Of a stretch of 64,000 nt of DNA, positions 13,881 to 21,757 are shown piece by piece. Every line of letters starts with the position of its first letter. Position 1 is the first letter of the stretch. The stretch is from the NCBI GenBank assembly GCA_021792365.1, contig JAJYUT010000002.1:62001-126000 (forward strand), given 5' to 3'. A model generated the notes under the pieces. The model was not told where the DNA came from, made no database searches, and worked only from the letters and a program-made list of their open reading frames with translations. Position numbers and translations under genes: made by a program. This stretch comes from Pseudomonadota bacterium (lineage in GTDB: Bacteria > Pseudomonadota > Alphaproteobacteria > Dongiales > Dongiaceae).

Positions 13881-14387
13881 ATGAGCAATGAAACCAGCCG
13901 CGTCACGGACCTGAAGGATCTGAGGGACCTCGGTACCGTCCGCGCCGCCGCCGCCCAGCAGCCGGCCGCCGCGCCCAGGCGCGAGCGCAAGGTCGACGCC
14001 CAGGGTCGCTCCTACGCGACCGGAAAGCGCAAGGACGCCATTGCCCGCGTCTGGATCAAGCCCGGCAGCGGCAAGATCACCGTCAACGGCCGCGACAGCA
14101 CGGTCTATTTCGCCCGTCCGGTGCTCCGCATGATGATCAACCAGCCGTTCGGCGTGGTGAACCGTGCGGGCCAGTTCGACGTGGTCTGCACCGTCGTCGG
14201 TGGCGGCCTCTCGGGCCAGGCCGGCGCGGTCCGCCACGGCATCAGCCGCGCGCTGACCCTGTTCGAGCCGGACCTCCGTCCAGCGCTGAAGCAGGGCGGG
14301 TTCCTGACCCGCGATCCGCGCACGGTCGAGCGCAAGAAGTACGGCCGCGCCAAGGCGCGCCGGAGCTTCCAGTTCTCGAAGCGCTAA
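13881..14387 (+). CDS. rpsI: 30S ribosomal protein S9
   Basis: 168 residues. The S9 core begins at about residue 45 with [20 protein letters not shown], continues through [21 protein letters not shown], and ends with the conserved C terminus [17 protein letters not shown] that reaches the ribosomal P site. It has an Ala/Gln-rich N-terminal extension of about 40 residues, frequent in alphaproteobacterial S9. Followed by a terminator. Confidence 0.98.
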
Positions 14388-14469: not shown

Positions 14470-15642
14470 ATGGAACACGCGCAACACATCTGGATCGACG
14501 AGGCCGATTGCCGGCTTGAGGATTTCCGCCGCCTGGTGGAGCGGCACGCGCGCCTAGCGGATTATCCGATGGCCAGCGCGGTCCATTCGAACGTGCTCGC
14601 CTATCAGGGCGGGGACATCCGCCGTGCCGCGGCCGATCTGGAGTGGCGCAAGGCGCTGATGGCGGAATGGGTACGGGCGCTGACGGAGGGGCCGGGCATC
14701 CTGCTGTTCCGCGACGCCTTCCCCGACCTGGCGGTCGTCGATGCGGCCACCGAGCGGTTTTTCGCGATGATCGAGGAGCAGCGCGCCGGCGCGGGCAACG
14801 CCGGCGACCACTTCGCCAAGCCCGGGGCCAATGACCGCATCTGGAACGCGCTGGAGAAGCTCTGCTTGCGTGATCCGCGCCTGTTCGCGCGCTACTACGG
14901 CAATGCGGCGGTCGCCCTGGTGAGCGAGGCTTGGCTCGGCCCTGGCTACCAGGTCACCTCGCAGATCAACGTGGTCAACCCGGGCGGGGAGGCGCAGCAG
15001 CCGCACCGCGACTACCACATGGGCTTCCAGACGGCCCAGACGCTGGCGCGCTTCCCGGCGCATGCCCATCGCCTGTCACCGACATTGACGCTGCAGGGCG
15101 CAGTCGCGCATTGCGAGATGCCGGTGGAGACCGGGCCGACGCTCTACCTGCCGTACTCGCAGAGCTACGAGCTTGGCTACCTCGCATGGCGCCGGCCGGA
15201 CTTCATCGAGTATTTCAGCCGCCATCGCATCCAGCTCCCGCTGCACAAGGGCGACGCGGTGTTCTTCAACCCGGCCCTGTTCCACGCGGCGGGCAACAAC
15301 CGCACCAGCGACGTGAGGCGCATCGCCAACCTGCTGCAGGTCTCCTCCGCCTATGGCCGCGCGATGGAAAGCGTCGACCGGACGCGCATGAGCGCCGCGC
15401 TCTATCCGGTCCTGCTGGCGATGCGCGCGGCCGGGGATCTCGACACCGACGAATGCGCCAACGCCGTGGCGGCGTGCGCGGAGGGATACTCGTTTCCGAC
15501 CAACCTCGATCGCGATCCGCCGCTCTACGGCCTCGCGCCCGAAACCCAGGCGCAACTGATGCTGAAGGCGCTGTCCGAACAGTGGTCGGCCGGCCAGTTC
15601 AACGAAGCGCTGGAGAAACAAGCATGGCGGCGTTTGGCCTAG
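14470..15642 (+). CDS. Phytanoyl-CoA dioxygenase (PhyH) family protein
   Basis: 390-residue Fe(II)/2-oxoglutarate oxygenase-like protein. The metal motif HRD (His179, Asp181) lies in EAQQPHRDYHMGF; the distal His (about 272) is in FFNPALFHAAGNNRTSD, with a following Arg that could bind 2-oxoglutarate. The substrate is unknown. The ATG at 14470 was preferred to an upstream codon. It ends 9 bases from a convergent second PhyH-type gene. It sits between rpsI and argC. Confidence 0.8.
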   Translation: MEHAQHIWIDEADCRLEDFRRLVERHARLADYPMASAVHSNVLAYQGGDIRRAAADLEWRKALMAEWVRALTEGPGILLFRDAFPDLAVVDAATERFFAMIEEQRAGAGNAGDHFAKPGANDRIWNALEKLCLRDPRLFARYYGNAAVALVSEAWLGPGYQVTSQINVVNPGGEAQQPHRDYHMGFQTAQTLARFPAHAHRLSPTLTLQGAVAHCEMPVETGPTLYLPYSQSYELGYLAWRRPDFIEYFSRHRIQLPLHKGDAVFFNPALFHAAGNNRTSDVRRIANLLQVSSAYGRAMESVDRTRMSAALYPVLLAMRAAGDLDTDECANAVAACAEGYSFPTNLDRDPPLYGLAPETQAQLMLKALSEQWSAGQFNEALEKQAWRRLA

Positions 15643-15651
15643 AAGCCGGCG

Positions 15652-17271
15652 CTATCGGCGGCGGCGTCTTCCTGCGAACTTGCTGAGCCGGCGAACCAAT
15701 CGCCGCACAAGGTCGCCCTTCTTCTTCGATTCCTGCTTTGCGGAATCCGCCGTGAGCGGGCTATGGAACTCGAAGACCAGGTACGTCGCGGGCCCGGCGC
15801 CGACATTCCTGATCCCGTGCGCCTGGCCGGCGGCATAGTAGATGATTCCCGGTGCGCGGACCCCCGCGCCGACCGTCTCTACCTCGCCGGACAGCAGCAC
15901 GATTCCCACGTCGTAGGGGTCCGCGTGCGGCGCGTAGCCCGCCGCCGGCCGCAAGGTCGTGAGATGGGCCTGGAGCTTGCTCAGCGAGTGGGTCGGCTGC
16001 TCGAAGAGAAGCTTCTGGGCGACCGCCTTTTGCTCCACGACGGCCGCGTCAGGCTTGAAGATGCTTGCGCACAAGGGCGTTTCGCTGTCGGCCACGCCGC
16101 CACGCCACTTGAACATGAGATAGCTTGCCGGTCGCGCGCTGACATTGTGGATCGTATGGTGCTGCCCGATCGGATAATAGCTGAACATGCCGGGCGCCAT
16201 GTGGTGACGCCTGATGGCGGTGCCGTTCGGATCGTCCGCAAGCTCGACCTCCACCTCGCCATCCAGCATGACCAGCAGTTCTTCCTCCTCGTGAGTATGA
16301 GGCGGGTGCGGGCGATGGCCGGCACTGAGCACCGATACATGGCATGACATGATGTTCAGCGCGGCGGTTCGTCCGCTGAACTGGGGATATGCCCGCCAGC
16401 GCTTGGTCGCATCCTCGGCGAGGGGGACCGCGATAGACTTCGCCACTGTCGTGATCGCCATCGGCACTTCCTTCAAGGGCCGCATTGGCGGGGGCACGAT
16501 CCGGTTGGCCGAGCGACGCGCCGAGCCGCTGACGAGAACGGTTGGCACGCGCGGGCTCTCCGCGACCTTCCAGGGCCAGGCGTAGTCGGCATTGAGCGGC
16601 ATCGGGATCGGGTTGTCCGCTGCCGCGTATTGCAGCAGGAGCGCCGTGCGGGTACCTGGCGTGCCGCTATTGTACCCGGCATGCCAGAGGCGCCCGTCGA
16701 ACAGGACCATGTCCCCGTCGCGGCAATCCGGACCATCGATCTGCGCCGCGGGATCGATCTTCCGCACGACCTCCAGCAGCTGTTCGTCGGTCACGGTAAA
16801 CCGGTCGACATTCTGCTCCGCCGCCACGTCCTGTGCGGGACGGCCGAACAGATGCGAGCGCGTAACGAACCGCAGGCCCGACGTGCTGCTCGTGTTACGC
16901 AACCCGATCCAGACCGATATGGCGCGGGAGCCCGGATCCGACGTTTCCATGTCGGAGTGCCAGACCTGCCGCGTATCGGGGAGCCTGCGGATGAGCATCG
17001 CGCCCCACAGCACGATGTCATCGCCCAGCAACGGTCGCAGCAAGGCGGTGATTTCCGGACGTGATGCGATCTCATGGACCCCCGCGTTGGTGGCGGCATG
17101 GCCCTTGAACCAAGTGAGGGGCCGCGGAGCATCAGGAGTGCTCAAATACTCCTCGACGGCCGTGCATTCGGCTGGCGACAGGAGCGGAACCGGGCCGTAG
17201 AAGCCGAAGTGCTTGAGGTCGGCGCTGACGCGGTCGGTCAATCCCGAGGTCTCTGTCAGCTGAGTTTGCAT
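15652..17271 (-). CDS. PhyH dioxygenase-bicupin fusion protein
   Basis: 539 residues. Residues 1-245 are a PhyH-type 2-oxoglutarate oxygenase with a full facial triad (His105, Asp107 in WHSDME; His197 in RLWHAGYN) and a 2-oxoglutarate Arg near 208. After a basic, proline-rich joint, two cupin barrels follow: the first with HPPHTHEEEELLVML and a second with APHADPYDVGIVLLSGEVE and GIRNVGAGPATYLVFEFH. The tail is very basic. The start at 17271 is the first ATG consistent with the fold. Possibly a two-step oxygenase; substrate unknown. Confidence 0.75.
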   Translation of the reverse strand: MQTQLTETSGLTDRVSADLKHFGFYGPVPLLSPAECTAVEEYLSTPDAPRPLTWFKGHAATNAGVHEIASRPEITALLRPLLGDDIVLWGAMLIRRLPDTRQVWHSDMETSDPGSRAISVWIGLRNTSSTSGLRFVTRSHLFGRPAQDVAAEQNVDRFTVTDEQLLEVVRKIDPAAQIDGPDCRDGDMVLFDGRLWHAGYNSGTPGTRTALLLQYAAADNPIPMPLNADYAWPWKVAESPRVPTVLVSGSARRSANRIVPPPMRPLKEVPMAITTVAKSIAVPLAEDATKRWRAYPQFSGRTAALNIMSCHVSVLSAGHRPHPPHTHEEEELLVMLDGEVEVELADDPNGTAIRRHHMAPGMFSYYPIGQHHTIHNVSARPASYLMFKWRGGVADSETPLCASIFKPDAAVVEQKAVAQKLLFEQPTHSLSKLQAHLTTLRPAAGYAPHADPYDVGIVLLSGEVETVGAGVRAPGIIYYAAGQAHGIRNVGAGPATYLVFEFHSPLTADSAKQESKKKGDLVRRLVRRLSKFAGRRRRR

Positions 17272-17482
17272 GTCGGTATCGCTCACAAGACAGACGCCAA
17301 AGAATCTCGCGGCGAAGATACAGACGAGTGCATGGACGAGCAATCCGGCGGCTACGCTTCAAGGTTGAAATCAGGCCGCTTTGAGTTCATTGACACTGGA
17401 AAGTCACATGGCGAGATGCCGAAGGGCAATGATCAGCACCGATCTGCGAGGCATTCTGTGATGCCGCGCTGGCGCATGATTC

Positions 17483-17749
17483 TCAGCGCTCCTTGCTCTT
17501 GCCTTCTTTCTCGCCCTCTTCGAACAGGCGTCTGATCCAGTCCGGATGGCGGGCTGCGAAAAATAGAACCACGCAGGTTACGGGCGTGCCGATATTCCTT
17601 ATGCCCTGCGGCCGACTGTTGGAACTGTAGATGACACCGAGCGGTTTGAGCCGCGGCGATAGATCCGGGATCGGCGCGTTGTAGCCGCCTGCCTCGGTCT
17701 GCTCGGGACGGTACCGCTCGGGCCGCGCATCGCGCGTTGAGATCGACAC
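17483..17749 (-). pseudogene. Truncated cupin-like gene, relative of the neighbouring bicupin C terminus
   Basis: 88 residues from a GTG codon. The stretch GVIYSSNSRPQGIRNIGTP aligns with GIIYYAAGQAHGIRNVGAG in the second cupin of the adjacent fusion protein, and the following hydrophobic strand (TCVVLFFAARH against ATYLVFEFHSP) also corresponds. The metal-binding half of the cupin barrel is absent, so it looks like the remnant of a duplicated gene, though a small functional protein is not excluded. Confidence 0.5.
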
Positions 17750-17751
17750 CC

Positions 17752-18305
17752 CTAGACCGGCGCTACGCCGAACGGCTCGGCGTGGAAACGGAAGACGATC
17801 GCGTAGACCAGCAATCCGGCGGCGATGCCTGCGAGATCAACCTTGAAGCTGCCATCGGTGCGGCCCGGGCGCTTGCCGCGATACGTGGCCGATAGGATCG
17901 CGAGCACGGCCCACAAAGCGAAAGCACCGAACAGGATATTCGACGCGAGATCGCCGTTTGCCAGCAGGTGAAAACCGGCCCAGATCAGGATTCCGGTCAG
18001 TATCGGATGTCGCAGCAGGTGACGGAGCCGCCCGGTATGCTGCCGGCCGCCACCAGCACGAAGGCGACCGCCATGGCTGCGGGGAGGAGGGTGCGGGCCG
18101 TCTGCGAGAGTTCGAAGATCTGCTCCTGCGGCGCCTGGCCGTAGCCGATGCCGGTCAGGACGAGCCCGTCCGCCGAAACCAGCGAGAACAGGATGTTGTA
18201 GCCCGCCTTGCCCAGACGGGCGACGAGCGCCGCCAGCGGGCCGCCGAAGTTCGGCAGGATGTGAATGCCGACAAACAGGACCAAGCCCCCGATCAGCAGC
18301 GCCAC
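17752..18305 (-). pseudogene. nnrU: NnrU family membrane protein, frameshifted
   Basis: The N-terminal half reads from ATG 18305 (MALLIGGLVLFVGIHILPNF ... AAMAVAFVLVAAGSIPGG) and then runs into a stop after CCDIRY. The C-terminal half (RHLLRHPILTGILIWAGFHL, NGDLASNILFGAFALWAV, ending EPFGVAPV) continues in a second frame to 17752. The two halves join at about 18023-18035, in the run GCCGCCCGG, by a single-base shift, and together give the usual five-to-six-helix NnrU length of about 185. Either a genuine frameshift or a base-calling error in GC-rich sequence. NnrU proteins are associated with nitrite/nitric oxide metabolism, but no such genes are nearby. Confidence 0.75.
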
Positions 18306-18457: not shown

Positions 18458-19504
18458 ATGGCGAGCAACAAGCTTCGGGTCGCGATCCTGGGTGCCAGCG
18501 GCTATACCGGCGCCGAGCTGGTGCGCCTGCTCTCGCGCCATCCGCACGTCGCCATCGTTGCGCTGACCGCCGACCGGCAGGCGGGCAAGCCGGCCGCGGA
18601 GGTCTTCCCGCAGTTCCAGCTGCAGGAGCTGCCCACCCTGACCAAGATCGACGATGTCGACTGGGCTGGGGTGGATTTCGCATTCTGCTGCCTGCCGCAC
18701 GGCCTGACGCAGGAGGTGATTGCCAGGCTGCCGCGGCACCTCAGGATCGTCGATCTCTCTGCCGATTTCCGCCTCGCGGACATCGCGACCTACGCCACCT
18801 GGTACGGGCACGAGCATCACGCGCCCGACCTGCAGAAGGAAGCGGTCTACGGCCTCACGGAAATCAACCGCGATGCGGTGCGCAAGGCGCGGCTGGTCGC
18901 CAATCCCGGCTGCTACCCGACGGCCGCTCAACTGCCCCTGATCCCGCTGCTCGAGAAGAAGCTGATCGACCCCGCGGACATCATCATCGATGCGAAGTCG
19001 GGCGTTACCGGCGCGGGGCGCGATGTGAAGCTCGGCAGTCTCTTTTCCGAGGTGACCGAGGGCATTCACGCTTACGGGGTGGCGAGCCATCGTCACGCAC
19101 CGGAGATCGAGCAGGGGCTGTCCGAGGCCGCCGGCAAGCCGATCCTGGTGAACTTCACGCCGCACCTGATGCCGATGAGCCGCGGCATCCTTGCCAGCAT
19201 CTATGTGAAGCTGGCTCCGGGCGTGACGGCCGATCAGTTGCGTTCGGCGCTGAGCGAGCGCTATCGCGGTGAATACTTCCTGCGCGTCCTGCCGAACGGT
19301 GCAGCGCCCGCGACACGTCATGTGCGCGGCAGCAATTTCGTGCTCATGTCGGTGCACGCCGATCGCGTGCCGAACCGGGCGATCCTGATGTCGGTGGAGG
19401 ACAACCTGGTGAAGGGCGCATCCGGGCAGGCAGTGCAGAACATGAACGTGATGGCCGGCTTCCCGGAGGAGACGGCGCTCGAGCAATTGCCGCTGTTCCC
19501 GTAG
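18458..19504 (+). CDS. argC: N-acetyl-gamma-glutamyl-phosphate reductase
   Basis: Third enzyme of arginine synthesis: NADPH-dependent reduction of N-acetylglutamyl phosphate. The nucleotide-binding motif is VAILGASGYTGAELVRLLSRH; the catalytic cysteine lies in VANPGCYPTAA; a C-terminal HRHAPEIEQ segment is typical. 348 residues from ATG 18458, preceded by GAGGGG. A gamma carbonic anhydrase follows after 11 bases. Confidence 0.96.
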   Translation: MASNKLRVAILGASGYTGAELVRLLSRHPHVAIVALTADRQAGKPAAEVFPQFQLQELPTLTKIDDVDWAGVDFAFCCLPHGLTQEVIARLPRHLRIVDLSADFRLADIATYATWYGHEHHAPDLQKEAVYGLTEINRDAVRKARLVANPGCYPTAAQLPLIPLLEKKLIDPADIIIDAKSGVTGAGRDVKLGSLFSEVTEGIHAYGVASHRHAPEIEQGLSEAAGKPILVNFTPHLMPMSRGILASIYVKLAPGVTADQLRSALSERYRGEYFLRVLPNGAAPATRHVRGSNFVLMSVHADRVPNRAILMSVEDNLVKGASGQAVQNMNVMAGFPEETALEQLPLFP

Positions 19505-19515
19505 GGAGCCTCGCG

Positions 19516-20049
19516 ATGGCCGCGCTCATCCGTCCGCATCATGGCGTCACGCCCAGGATCGCGCCCAGTGCCTTCGTCGCGGAGACCGCTGTCGTGATCG
19601 GCGATGTGGAGATCGGGGAGCATGCGTCGATCTGGTATGGCTGCGTGCTGCGCGGCGATGACAACACGATCCGGGTCGGCGCACGCACCAACATCCAGGA
19701 CGGCACCATCGTCCACATCAATCACGAGCGCGATGGCGCGGCCGGCACCAGGACCGTCATCGGCGCCGACGTCACGATCGGCCACATGGCGCTGATCCAT
19801 GCCTGCACGCTGGAGGACGGCTGCTTCATCGGCATGAAGGCGTGCGTCATGGACGGTGCGGTGGTGGAATCGGGTGCCATGGTCGCGGCCGGTGCGCTGG
19901 TAACTCCCGGCAAGCGCGTGAAGCGCGGCGAGTTGTGGGCCGGCAGTCCCGCCAGGCTGATGCGCAAATTGAGCGAGGCGGAGCTGAGGTATTTCAGCTA
20001 CACGGCGCAGCATTACGCCGAGCTGGCGGCGAGCTATCGCGACGCCTGA
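19516..20049 (+). CDS. Gamma carbonic anhydrase family protein
   Basis: 177-residue left-handed beta-helix protein with hexapeptide repeats (VIGDVEIGEHASIWYGCVLRG, VRVGARTNIQDGTIVH-like, TIGHMALIHACTLEDGCFIGM, VSGAMVAAGALVTPGKRV). Metal-ligand histidines are present in IVHINHE, TIGHMA and LIHAC. Family members include true carbonic anhydrases and inactive relatives, so activity is uncertain. Overlaps the convergent DUF1194 gene by 16 bases. Confidence 0.85.
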   Translation: MAALIRPHHGVTPRIAPSAFVAETAVVIGDVEIGEHASIWYGCVLRGDDNTIRVGARTNIQDGTIVHINHERDGAAGTRTVIGADVTIGHMALIHACTLEDGCFIGMKACVMDGAVVESGAMVAAGALVTPGKRVKRGELWAGSPARLMRKLSEAELRYFSYTAQHYAELAASYRDA

Positions 20050-20759
20050 AGCGCCCGCGCACGGCTGGAGACGATTTCGGTCGTGAACTTGCGCGCCAGC
20101 ACCTCGACCAGGTGCTCCGGATCGCTGGCGGCGAACGCGAAGGCGTGAGGGCCGCCGATGACCTCCCGCTTGAAGTAGCGGTAAATGGTCCGGTCGCGGC
20201 CCAGCGCGACGCCGTTGATGGTGATGCCTTGCGCGACCGCGCGGTCGCGCGCCGACCCGGCGTGCTCGCCCACATTGTCGACCCCGTTGCCGATGATGTT
20301 GATGATCCGGCGCTCCGTGGCAAAGGGAGCGGCCTGCAGCATCCCGGCGCCGTAATCGATCGCGCCCGACAGGTCGGTGAGGGCACCCAGCCTGACGACG
20401 ATGTCGGAGCCGCGGATGGCGCGCAGTTGCTTGGCCGCCTCGGTCGACACCGCAGCGGCATCTTCCGGCGAGCCGATCACGCGCCAAGCGGCGAGCACCG
20501 GGTGGTTGCCGTCGGCCCAGACGAACAGGGCAAAGCCGATGCGCCCGTGCTGTCCTTGCTGGATCGCGGCGACGATCTGCGGAGAACGGATCGCCATGAC
20601 GATACCGTCGACCTGCAGCAGGGCTTCCGGCGCCTCGATCGAGCTGGAGAGGTCGAGGCCTGTGACGATGTTGGCATCCGTCCTGATGCCGTCCGCGAAC
20701 CCGACGCGGCCCGCGAGGACGGCGCAGCCAACGACAATGAATGCAAGCAGACGGCGCAC
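20034..20759 (-). CDS. DUF1194 domain protein (von Willebrand A-like), copy 1
   Basis: Secreted protein of about 241 residues: a hydrophobic signal sequence (RRLLAFIVVGCAVLAG), then a von Willebrand A-like fold with the MIDAS-type motif TGLDLSSSIEAPE, FALFVWADG, and NIIGNGVDNVGEHAG. A GTG at 20759 and a TTG at 20795 are both possible starts. Function unknown; it forms a tandem pair with the next gene. Confidence 0.75.
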   Translation of the reverse strand: MRRLLAFIVVGCAVLAGRVGFADGIRTDANIVTGLDLSSSIEAPEALLQVDGIVMAIRSPQIVAAIQQGQHGRIGFALFVWADGNHPVLAAWRVIGSPEDAAAVSTEAAKQLRAIRGSDIVVRLGALTDLSGAIDYGAGMLQAAPFATERRIINIIGNGVDNVGEHAGSARDRAVAQGITINGVALGRDRTIYRYFKREVIGGPHAFAFAASDPEHLVEVLARKFTTEIVSSRARALQASR

Positions 20760-20825
20760 GACACCAGCTTTCGTCCCGCCGCCCGGGCGCGTCAAGCCGA
20801 ATATGCGGCCAGCCCTCCGGGCAAT

Positions 20826-20866
20826 CTACAATCGGGCAGGCTACAATCCGGGCAGGCTACATTCGG
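20826..20866. repeat. Short tandem repeat between the two DUF1194 genes
   Basis: CTACAATCGGGCAGG (20826-20840), CTACAATCCGGGCAGG (20841-20856) and a partial third unit CTACATTCGG (20857-20866). The third unit contains the TAG stop codon of the upstream DUF1194 copy. Confidence 0.75.
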
Positions 20867-21588
20867 TCCGGTCGCGAAGCGGGCTCGATGTTCAGCGCAA
20901 TCTCCGATACGAATTTCATCGCGAACACCTGGACCAGGGTCTCTGCATTGTCGGCCGGCAGCACGAATGCCGTTCGGCCGCCGATGACCTGGCTGCGATA
21001 GTAGTTGAGCACGGCCGGATCACCGCCGACGACGACGCCGTTGATGGTGGCGCCGCTTGCCAGCAACGCGGCGCGGGCACGCTGCGGATCCTCGCCCACA
21101 TTGTCCTCGCCGTTGCCGATGATGTTCACGAGCGCACGTTTCGCGCGGAAGGGAGCTTGCGACAGCATCTCGGAGGCATGTTCCATCGCGCCGGAGAGGT
21201 TCGTCAGCGTTCCGACCGAACGGGCGGACGACTTCAACAGCGAGTCGAGACGCGCGGTGATCTCCTGCGACGTCGCTTCGGCGTCCTCTTGCGAGCCGAT
21301 GGTGCGCCATGACACCAGTTCCGGGTAATCGCCATCCGCCCATACGAACACGGCAAAGCCGATTCGACGGTGCTGGCCGTGCTGGATCGCCGCGAGAATA
21401 GCTGGCGACCGGATGGCTTGGGCCATGCCGTCGATCTGGAGCATGGTCTCTTGGGCGTTGATCGAACTCGAGACGTCGAGGCCGGTGATAATATTGGCGT
21501 CGGTGCTCAGTTCATCATTTGCGACCGCTGGAACACAGCTCAGCGCGCCGCACAGAGCGAAGAAGGCAACGAGGGCGGAACGAACCAT
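20857..21588 (-). CDS. DUF1194 domain protein (von Willebrand A-like), copy 2
   Basis: 243 residues, paralogous to its downstream neighbour: same order of TGLDVSSSINAQE, FAVFVWADGDYPELVSW, NIIGNGEDNVGEDPQ and VIGGRTAFV. The N terminus MVRSALVAFFALCGALSC is a signal peptide ending near AVA-N. The ATG at 21588 is preceded by GGAGG, five bases away, which decides the start against a longer frame. Role unknown. Confidence 0.8.
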   Translation of the reverse strand: MVRSALVAFFALCGALSCVPAVANDELSTDANIITGLDVSSSINAQETMLQIDGMAQAIRSPAILAAIQHGQHRRIGFAVFVWADGDYPELVSWRTIGSQEDAEATSQEITARLDSLLKSSARSVGTLTNLSGAMEHASEMLSQAPFRAKRALVNIIGNGEDNVGEDPQRARAALLASGATINGVVVGGDPAVLNYYRSQVIGGRTAFVLPADNAETLVQVFAMKFVSEIALNIEPASRPDRM

Positions 21589-21757
21589 ATTGACCTCCAG
21601 TCGCCGACCACCGGCGACCGCCGAAGCAACGTTGACATCACCTCCCTTGAGCACAGCTTATGCTAAACAGCCTTAATGAGCCGTTAAGCGCCGACCGGAT
21701 CGCCAGCATACCGGGGCGTTGAGAGAACGGACTAGGCCGCTAAGTGGTTCCCCCGCG

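Follow-up and report, generated by a model that had tools for sequence, protein, structure and literature searches.

The 64,000-nucleotide window analyzed here comes from the 5.43-Mb genome of a Pseudomonadota bacterium (G000 in our labeling). Between rpsI and argC it carries a gene that joins a PhyH oxygenase domain to two cupin barrels, and this PhyH-bicupin fusion gene (15652-17271, minus strand) is the subject of our analysis. The rpsI-argC interval holds four items: a stand-alone PhyH gene (14470-15642, plus strand); the fusion gene, which is convergent to it; a decayed cupin frame of 88 residues (17483-17749, minus strand); and nnrU (17752-18305, minus strand). Its upstream border is rpsI (13881-14387, plus strand), recognized as an open reading frame (ORF) and by genome comparison, and its downstream border is argC (18458-19504, plus strand), recognized by Semialdhyde_dh Pfam matches. 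The fusion ORF spans 15652-17343 (minus strand) and would encode 563 residues from a TTG codon, while the ATG at 17271 gives a protein of 539 residues.

Architecture of the fusion protein

The original prediction, made from the letters of the window, described a 539-residue product in which a 2-oxoglutarate oxygenase with a full facial triad precedes two cupin barrels, and this description was borne out. Pfam assigned PhyH (PF05721) at 37.8 bits (cut-off, 22) and Cupin_2 at 60.0 bits (cut-off, 27.2), and relatives with the same architecture were found. The PhyH 2-oxoglutarate/Fe(II) oxygenase domain occupies residues ~1 to 250 (16522-17271, minus strand), gives a profile match to EctD, and contains the site H105-x-D107...H197 together with R208; these residues are invariant in all four fusions and in 8/8 aligned PhyH domains, a phage copy included. 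The first cupin barrel (residues ~291 to 392; 16096-16401, minus strand) has H325, H327, E331, and H372, which by motif and spacing we take to be the usual cupin metal set and which are invariant in 11/11 aligned bicupins. The second barrel (residues ~417 to 504; 15760-16023, minus strand) has H449-x-D451...H485 instead of the usual H-x-H, and this pattern is likewise invariant in all 12 second cupins aligned. JmjC and 2-oxoglutarate oxygenases share the H-x-D...H triad.

An AlphaFold2 model of the bicupin alone (predicted local distance difference test [pLDDT], 89.9; predicted template modeling score [pTM], 0.83) contains two predicted barrels, and together with the Cupin_2 assignment and solved bicupins matched at Z scores of ~20, it supports two cupin barrels in one chain. 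In the model of the whole fusion (mean pLDDT, 79.7; pTM, 0.50), the relative placing of the two halves is unreliable. The last ~31 residues (~508 to 538; 15658-15750, minus strand) are very basic and are predicted by AlphaFold2 to form a helix. Similar basic tails are present in G003 (L066), G353 (L079), K14 (L002), and a fragment in G001, and are missing from G006 and the phage copies.

Distribution of the family and its partners

The same domain fusion was sought in other genomes and was found in distant bacteria. The family is rare and scattered: the bicupin query matched 4 of 385 genomes in the class of the window (E 1e-20, G000 included), and further searches matched 2 of 398 in its phylum (E 1e-30, G000 included), 4 of 387 in the phylum of K14 (K14 and a Lentisphaerae genome included), 1 of 48 in the class of G437 (G437 itself), 2 of 4 in the family of G196, and 3 of 17 close relatives. 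A single-sequence scan of 84,980 species genomes, which finds close relatives only, returned two loci. Neither the window fusion nor the phage-contig bicupin and PhyH proteins described below were found among 50,697 phage records, and the window fusion was also absent from 72,556 plasmid records. PHROGs assigned no family to the window fusion, nor to the PhyH and bicupin proteins of phage contig L093, and the cupin matches in the viral structure library were all weak or partial.

We read 15 bicupin loci from Pseudomonadota, Verrucomicrobiota/Lentisphaerota, and three phage contigs: the window, G003, G006, K14 (L002), G353, G196, G1143, G795, L093, L097, L098, L003, G437, G1118, and G110. L093 and L099 are one contig and were counted once, and the G001 fragment, which lies at a contig end, was left out. 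The partner of the bicupin is PhyH at 11 of the 15 loci, fused to it in 8 and, in the 3 phage contigs, encoded by its own gene, which overlaps that of the bicupin. At the remaining four it is a radical S-adenosylmethionine (SAM) enzyme, fused in L003 and G437, encoded by the adjacent gene in G1118, and 2.7 kb away, at a distance of a few genes, in G110. The 11:4 ratio is not a census, since some loci were reached with a PhyH-containing query and others with the bicupin alone. The rare domain fusion is real and is a new combination of known domain families. In the portions of the literature open to our search (PMC3475032, PMC10955285, and PMC8234114 among them; subscription papers and preprints lay outside it), neither the fusion nor the pairing of a bicupin with radical SAM was described.

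Glycan-related genes around the relatives

Glycan-type transferase domains are fused to the bicupin, adjacent to it, or within 2 kb at 9 of the 15 loci. In G1143, the glycosyltransferase-like domain TOD1_MUCI70 is fused to the PhyH-bicupin unit in an intact 942-residue frame (E 2e-7, above the cut-off); the same domain is fused in G196, where the match is weak (E 0.003, below the cut-off) and the frame is broken. A single 1,351-residue frame in G437 (L094:2201-6253, plus strand) combines a bicupin, a radical SAM domain, a second bicupin, and a sulfotransferase (E 1.6e-32), and is flanked on both sides by glycosyltransferase genes. The radical SAM/SPASM-bicupin gene of L003 lies directly downstream of a glycosyltransferase family 2 (GT2) gene, the bicupin of G1118 adjoins a nucleotide-diphospho-sugar transferase/radical SAM protein, and a GT2 gene lies 1.5 kb downstream of the K14 bicupin gene.

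On the three phage contigs the gene order is GT2, PhyH, bicupin, methyltransferase, glycosyltransferase-like gene, and GT4 (glycosyltransferase family 4), with the PhyH and bicupin genes overlapping by ATGA or GTGA in 3/3. Searches of Pfam or PHROGs covered the GT2, methyltransferase, and GT4 genes of L093, the methyltransferase and GT4 genes of L098, and the glycosyltransferase-like gene of L097; the remaining cassette members were assigned by eye from sequence likeness and order. The L098 methyltransferase is a DNA methyltransferase according to PHROGs, and Pfam places its L093 counterpart in Methyltransf_24. The L098 cassette has a major head protein gene and head-tail adaptors to one side and tail genes to the other, and the L093 cassette is preceded by genes encoding head-tail adaptor and connector proteins. 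The phage bicupins form one clade (support, 100/99).

Other features of these neighborhoods were recorded separately. The GT4 glycosyltransferase of L093 (5882-7405, plus strand) contains a Hint domain (Hint_2, E 7.2e-8), probably an intein, and a frame among the head-tail genes of the same contig (L093:1043-1849, plus strand) appears by eye to be homing-endonuclease-like, with repeated motifs. Two distant genomes each have a U32/DUF3656 gene next to the bicupin gene (L002:3327-5873 and L003:6673-8532).

Proposed function and alternatives

Because transferase domains are fused to members of the family and glycan genes adjoin others, we favor, at about an even chance, the reading that the fusion enzyme is directed at glycans or sugars. 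Weak profile matches of the bicupin to cupin sugar-phosphate isomerases and of the PhyH domain to EvdO2 also count in its favor. Several bacterial groups retain PhyH and bicupin as a single unit, and the phages encode them in a pair of overlapping genes. The oxygenase would oxidize, by hydroxylation or dehydrogenation, one sugar carbon in a surface glycan or in a lipid- or nucleotide-linked precursor, and the bicupin would bind that sugar, carry out the next step, such as isomerization or epimerization, or do both. Elsewhere in the family, radical SAM enzymes would take the place of PhyH as the oxidizing partner. The basic C-terminal helix could keep the bacterial enzyme near the membrane, the site at which glycan precursors are built. 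By analogy, it is plausible that the phage cassette decorates virions; virion glycosylation is reported for mycobacteriophages in a study cited by PMC10955285. More tentatively, and with appreciably less confidence than in a sugar substrate as such, we suggest a glycan-modifying module of bacteria and tailed phages in which the bicupin works with interchangeable PhyH or radical SAM partners, perhaps with a RoxA-like second iron site, so that three metal centers might oxidize one sugar in successive steps, or oxidize and isomerize it.

If the proposal is correct, it would represent a new type of sugar oxidation on bacterial surfaces and in phages and would single out a few small gene cassettes amenable to testing; the exchange of oxygenase for radical SAM around a conserved bicupin would also allow the role of the bicupin to be deduced by comparison. 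For annotation, the label "phytanoyl-CoA dioxygenase" would mislead for the fusion.

Several observations weigh against a sugar substrate. No glycan gene was present in the stretch read at 5 of the 15 loci (the window, G003, G006, G353, and G795), G110 is ambiguous, and the phage link depends on contigs of a single clade. Among solved structures, the closest relatives of the PhyH domain have ectoine and not a sugar as their substrate. The modeled bicupin matched salicylate/gentisate dioxygenases, BacB, AerE, DUF861 proteins, and quercetinases at Z scores of ~18 to 21, with many rows tied, so the fold does not identify the reaction; the strongest structural matches include aromatic-ring dioxygenases and aminohydrolases, and the fold names no sugar function.

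The ectoine relatives suggest a different substrate, namely, that the protein is a small-molecule hydroxylase of the ectoine hydroxylase kind whose bicupin makes or binds the substrate. EctC, which makes ectoine, is itself a cupin. The PhyH profile found EctD as its best solved relative (E 1.1e-13), and several bacterial copies are solitary genes. The fusion nonetheless scored 18.7 bits against the NCBIfam equivalog model for ectoine hydroxylase EctD, for which the cut-off is 336.5, and a small-molecule substrate leaves both the fused glycosyltransferase and sulfotransferase domains and the phage cassettes unexplained. We regard it as a possible but rather doubtful alternative to the glycan-directed enzyme.

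The second cupin raises the most interesting rival, a ribosome- or rRNA-directed oxygenase that would act on the ribosome through its RoxA-like second cupin and its basic tail. RoxA is the L16 arginine hydroxylase, and hhalign aligned the second cupin with Escherichia coli RoxA at 86.6% probability over 63 columns, with the H-x-D...H residues in register; nine controls, among them reversed and shuffled RoxA and a pirin of the window, gave 0.1 to 3.3%. The predicted basic helix would suit such a role, and ribosome-related genes occur nearby: RlmL in G006, rplM-rpsI in the genus, and, in K14 and L003, the U32/DUF3656 protein, which is presumably of the RlhA type. The RoxA similarity is, however, confined to the columns around the metal site, the basic tail is missing from the phage copies, the neighbors vary between loci and may be accidental, and the glycosyltransferase and sulfotransferase fusions are left unexplained. 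Nor did the second cupin of the window reach the JmjC_2 Pfam cut-off of 22 bits, scoring 11.5. Scanned alone, six of seven second cupins gave weak JmjC_2 scores (11.5 to 16.5 bits; none for L066), and the nearest approaches came from full-length L096 (21.8) and L094 (21.3), both below 22. The likeness to RoxA is best treated as a lead from sequence comparison, not as a family assignment, and we consider a ribosomal target improbable.

An old insertion between rpsI and argC

The original prediction proposed that the block interrupts a commonly adjacent rpsI-argC pair and may be an insertion. We searched each gene in 17 genomes, 4 of the genus and 13 outside it. Outside the genus, rpsI and argC are adjacent in 7 of 13 genomes (G005 to G010 and G017); the gap is ~40 to 140 bases in G005, G007, and G017, whereas in G006, G008, G009, and G010 a divergent argC aligns only from residue ~130 and the gap was estimated from the missing length. 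The distance is 4.5 kb in G004 and, estimated from the missing argC length, ~1.2 kb in G020; the pair was not usable in G018, G019, G021, and G022. Within the genus, all four genomes have the stand-alone PhyH gene between rpsI and argC, and all four have nnrU there too, although in G001 the block is seen only across two contigs, both of which end inside it. Since the block splits the pair in 4/4 genus genomes while the genes are adjacent in 7/13 others, it is an old, genus-level insertion. A recent mobile-element insertion was not supported, given the identical placement of PhyH and nnrU in all four genomes and the ordinary codon use of the stand-alone PhyH gene.

Within the genus, G000 and G003 carry the fusion, and a contig of G001 stops within it, showing its C-terminal end. 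G002 lacks the fusion and has 37 bases between nnrU and the PhyH gene. A four-protein tree places G000 and G002 as sisters (97/98), and loss of the fusion in G002 is therefore the simplest reading. The nnrU gene, which the original prediction omitted together with the wider bicupin family and the link to glycan enzymes, matches Pfam NnrU (E 6.8e-18) on its N-terminal part and is broken by one frameshift in the window, while G002 and G003 have a single intact frame; the frameshift reflects either decay or a sequencing error.

The truncated frame at 17483-17749 begins just after the nnrU stop codon, and its reading as a product of duplication and decay held up. Its alignment score was 83 with the second cupin in G003 and 54 with the one in the window's fusion, and 0 of 500 shuffles reached either score (maxima, 55 and 45, respectively). 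The similarity to the cupins is thus beyond chance, and judged by alignment, the frame is a decayed second cupin of the fusion family; a Pfam scan of the frame gave no match. The proposed kinship with the second cupin of the neighboring fusion stands, yet the remnant is closer to the G003 copy, with 18 identities in 46 columns versus 12 in 46 for the window fusion (and 15 in 43 for L003). In the tree its branch is very long; grouping with the window fusion received support of 51/64, and grouping with G003 was not rejected (p-AU, 0.437). The fusion ATG of G003 overlaps the nnrU stop codon, the point right after which the remnant begins in the window. These data are consistent with two tandem copies in the ancestor, the one on the nnrU side having mostly disappeared from the window; they are also consistent with one copy that was duplicated later, the remnant keeping older residues.

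With a remnant, a frameshifted nnrU, and a sister genome lacking the fusion, it is conceivable that the fusion is itself largely noncatalytic or decaying in an eroding region. Its identity to the G003 copy is 54%, compared with 81% for phyH and 92% for argC, and its codon fit (-0.148) is low and below that of most neighbors, although the neighboring gene at 20860 is lower still (-0.184). The frame is nonetheless fully open, all metal-site residues are kept, and the same residues are invariant across bacteria and phages. Of the readings considered, this one appears to us the least probable.

The stand-alone PhyH gene (Pfam PhyH, E 1.8e-33) was correctly described as convergent to the fusion, and a second PhyH gene does lie beside it, but the two are not sister copies. 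Their best BLASTP segment covers 34 residues (E 0.007), and the fusion was rejected as a paralog of the stand-alone gene. Judged by its relatives, the latter belongs to a different, ordinary family that is common on rhizobial plasmids: it has orthologs in all four genus genomes and relatives in 48 plasmid records, from Rhizobium, Pantoea, Sinorhizobium, and others. In the three plasmid records that were opened, the relative is beside a LacI regulator and near short-chain dehydrogenase/reductase (SDR) or Gfo/Idh genes.

Two further features of the region were observed. In G003, a major facilitator superfamily (MFS) transporter gene (L066:7283-8500, plus strand) lies between rpsI and the stand-alone PhyH gene, and the corresponding interval in the three remaining genus genomes could not accommodate it; insertions may be especially frequent in this block. 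Beyond argC, neighboring genes at 20037-20795 and 20860-21654 (minus strand) share the stretch TDANI(V/I)TGLD, are both also found in G003, and appear to have arisen by tandem duplication within a single protein family.

Comparison with known systems

Two known groups resemble parts of the oxygenase half. EctD shares the PhyH family with the fusion; it has no bicupin, and the fusion falls far below the EctD equivalog cut-off. To our knowledge, EvdO2 and related orthosomycin oxygenases are not fused to cupins. According to PMC8234114, EvdO2 is among oxygenases tied to orthoester links between sugars; these are 2-oxoglutarate oxygenases that act on sugars, but the match to the fusion (E 0.0023) is too weak for family membership. 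The rhizobial-plasmid PhyH family includes the stand-alone gene of the window, while the fusion lies outside it. RoxA has the H-x-D...H site in common with the second cupin, and the rest of RoxA is missing from the fusion.

For the bicupin half, the sequence profile reaches oxalate decarboxylases, a dimethylsulfoniopropionate (DMSP) lyase, and sugar-phosphate isomerases, the matches to the cupin sugar-phosphate isomerases being weak (E 0.0007 to 0.008). Against NCBIfam models, the fusion scored well below the cut-offs for (S)-ureidoglycine aminohydrolase (18.0 versus 338 bits), the oxalate decarboxylase bicupin TIGR03404 (10.8 versus 254.2 bits), and the WbuC cupin (16.4 versus 42 bits). We know of no PhyH or radical SAM partner for the known bicupins. 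Oxalate decarboxylase, ureidoglycine aminohydrolase/DUF861, BacB, AerE, and the salicylate/gentisate 1,2-dioxygenases also have two barrels per chain and match at Z scores of ~17 to 21 over ~200 to 234 residues; their identity to the fusion is 8 to 20%, and the fusion differs from them in its second site, H-x-D...H.

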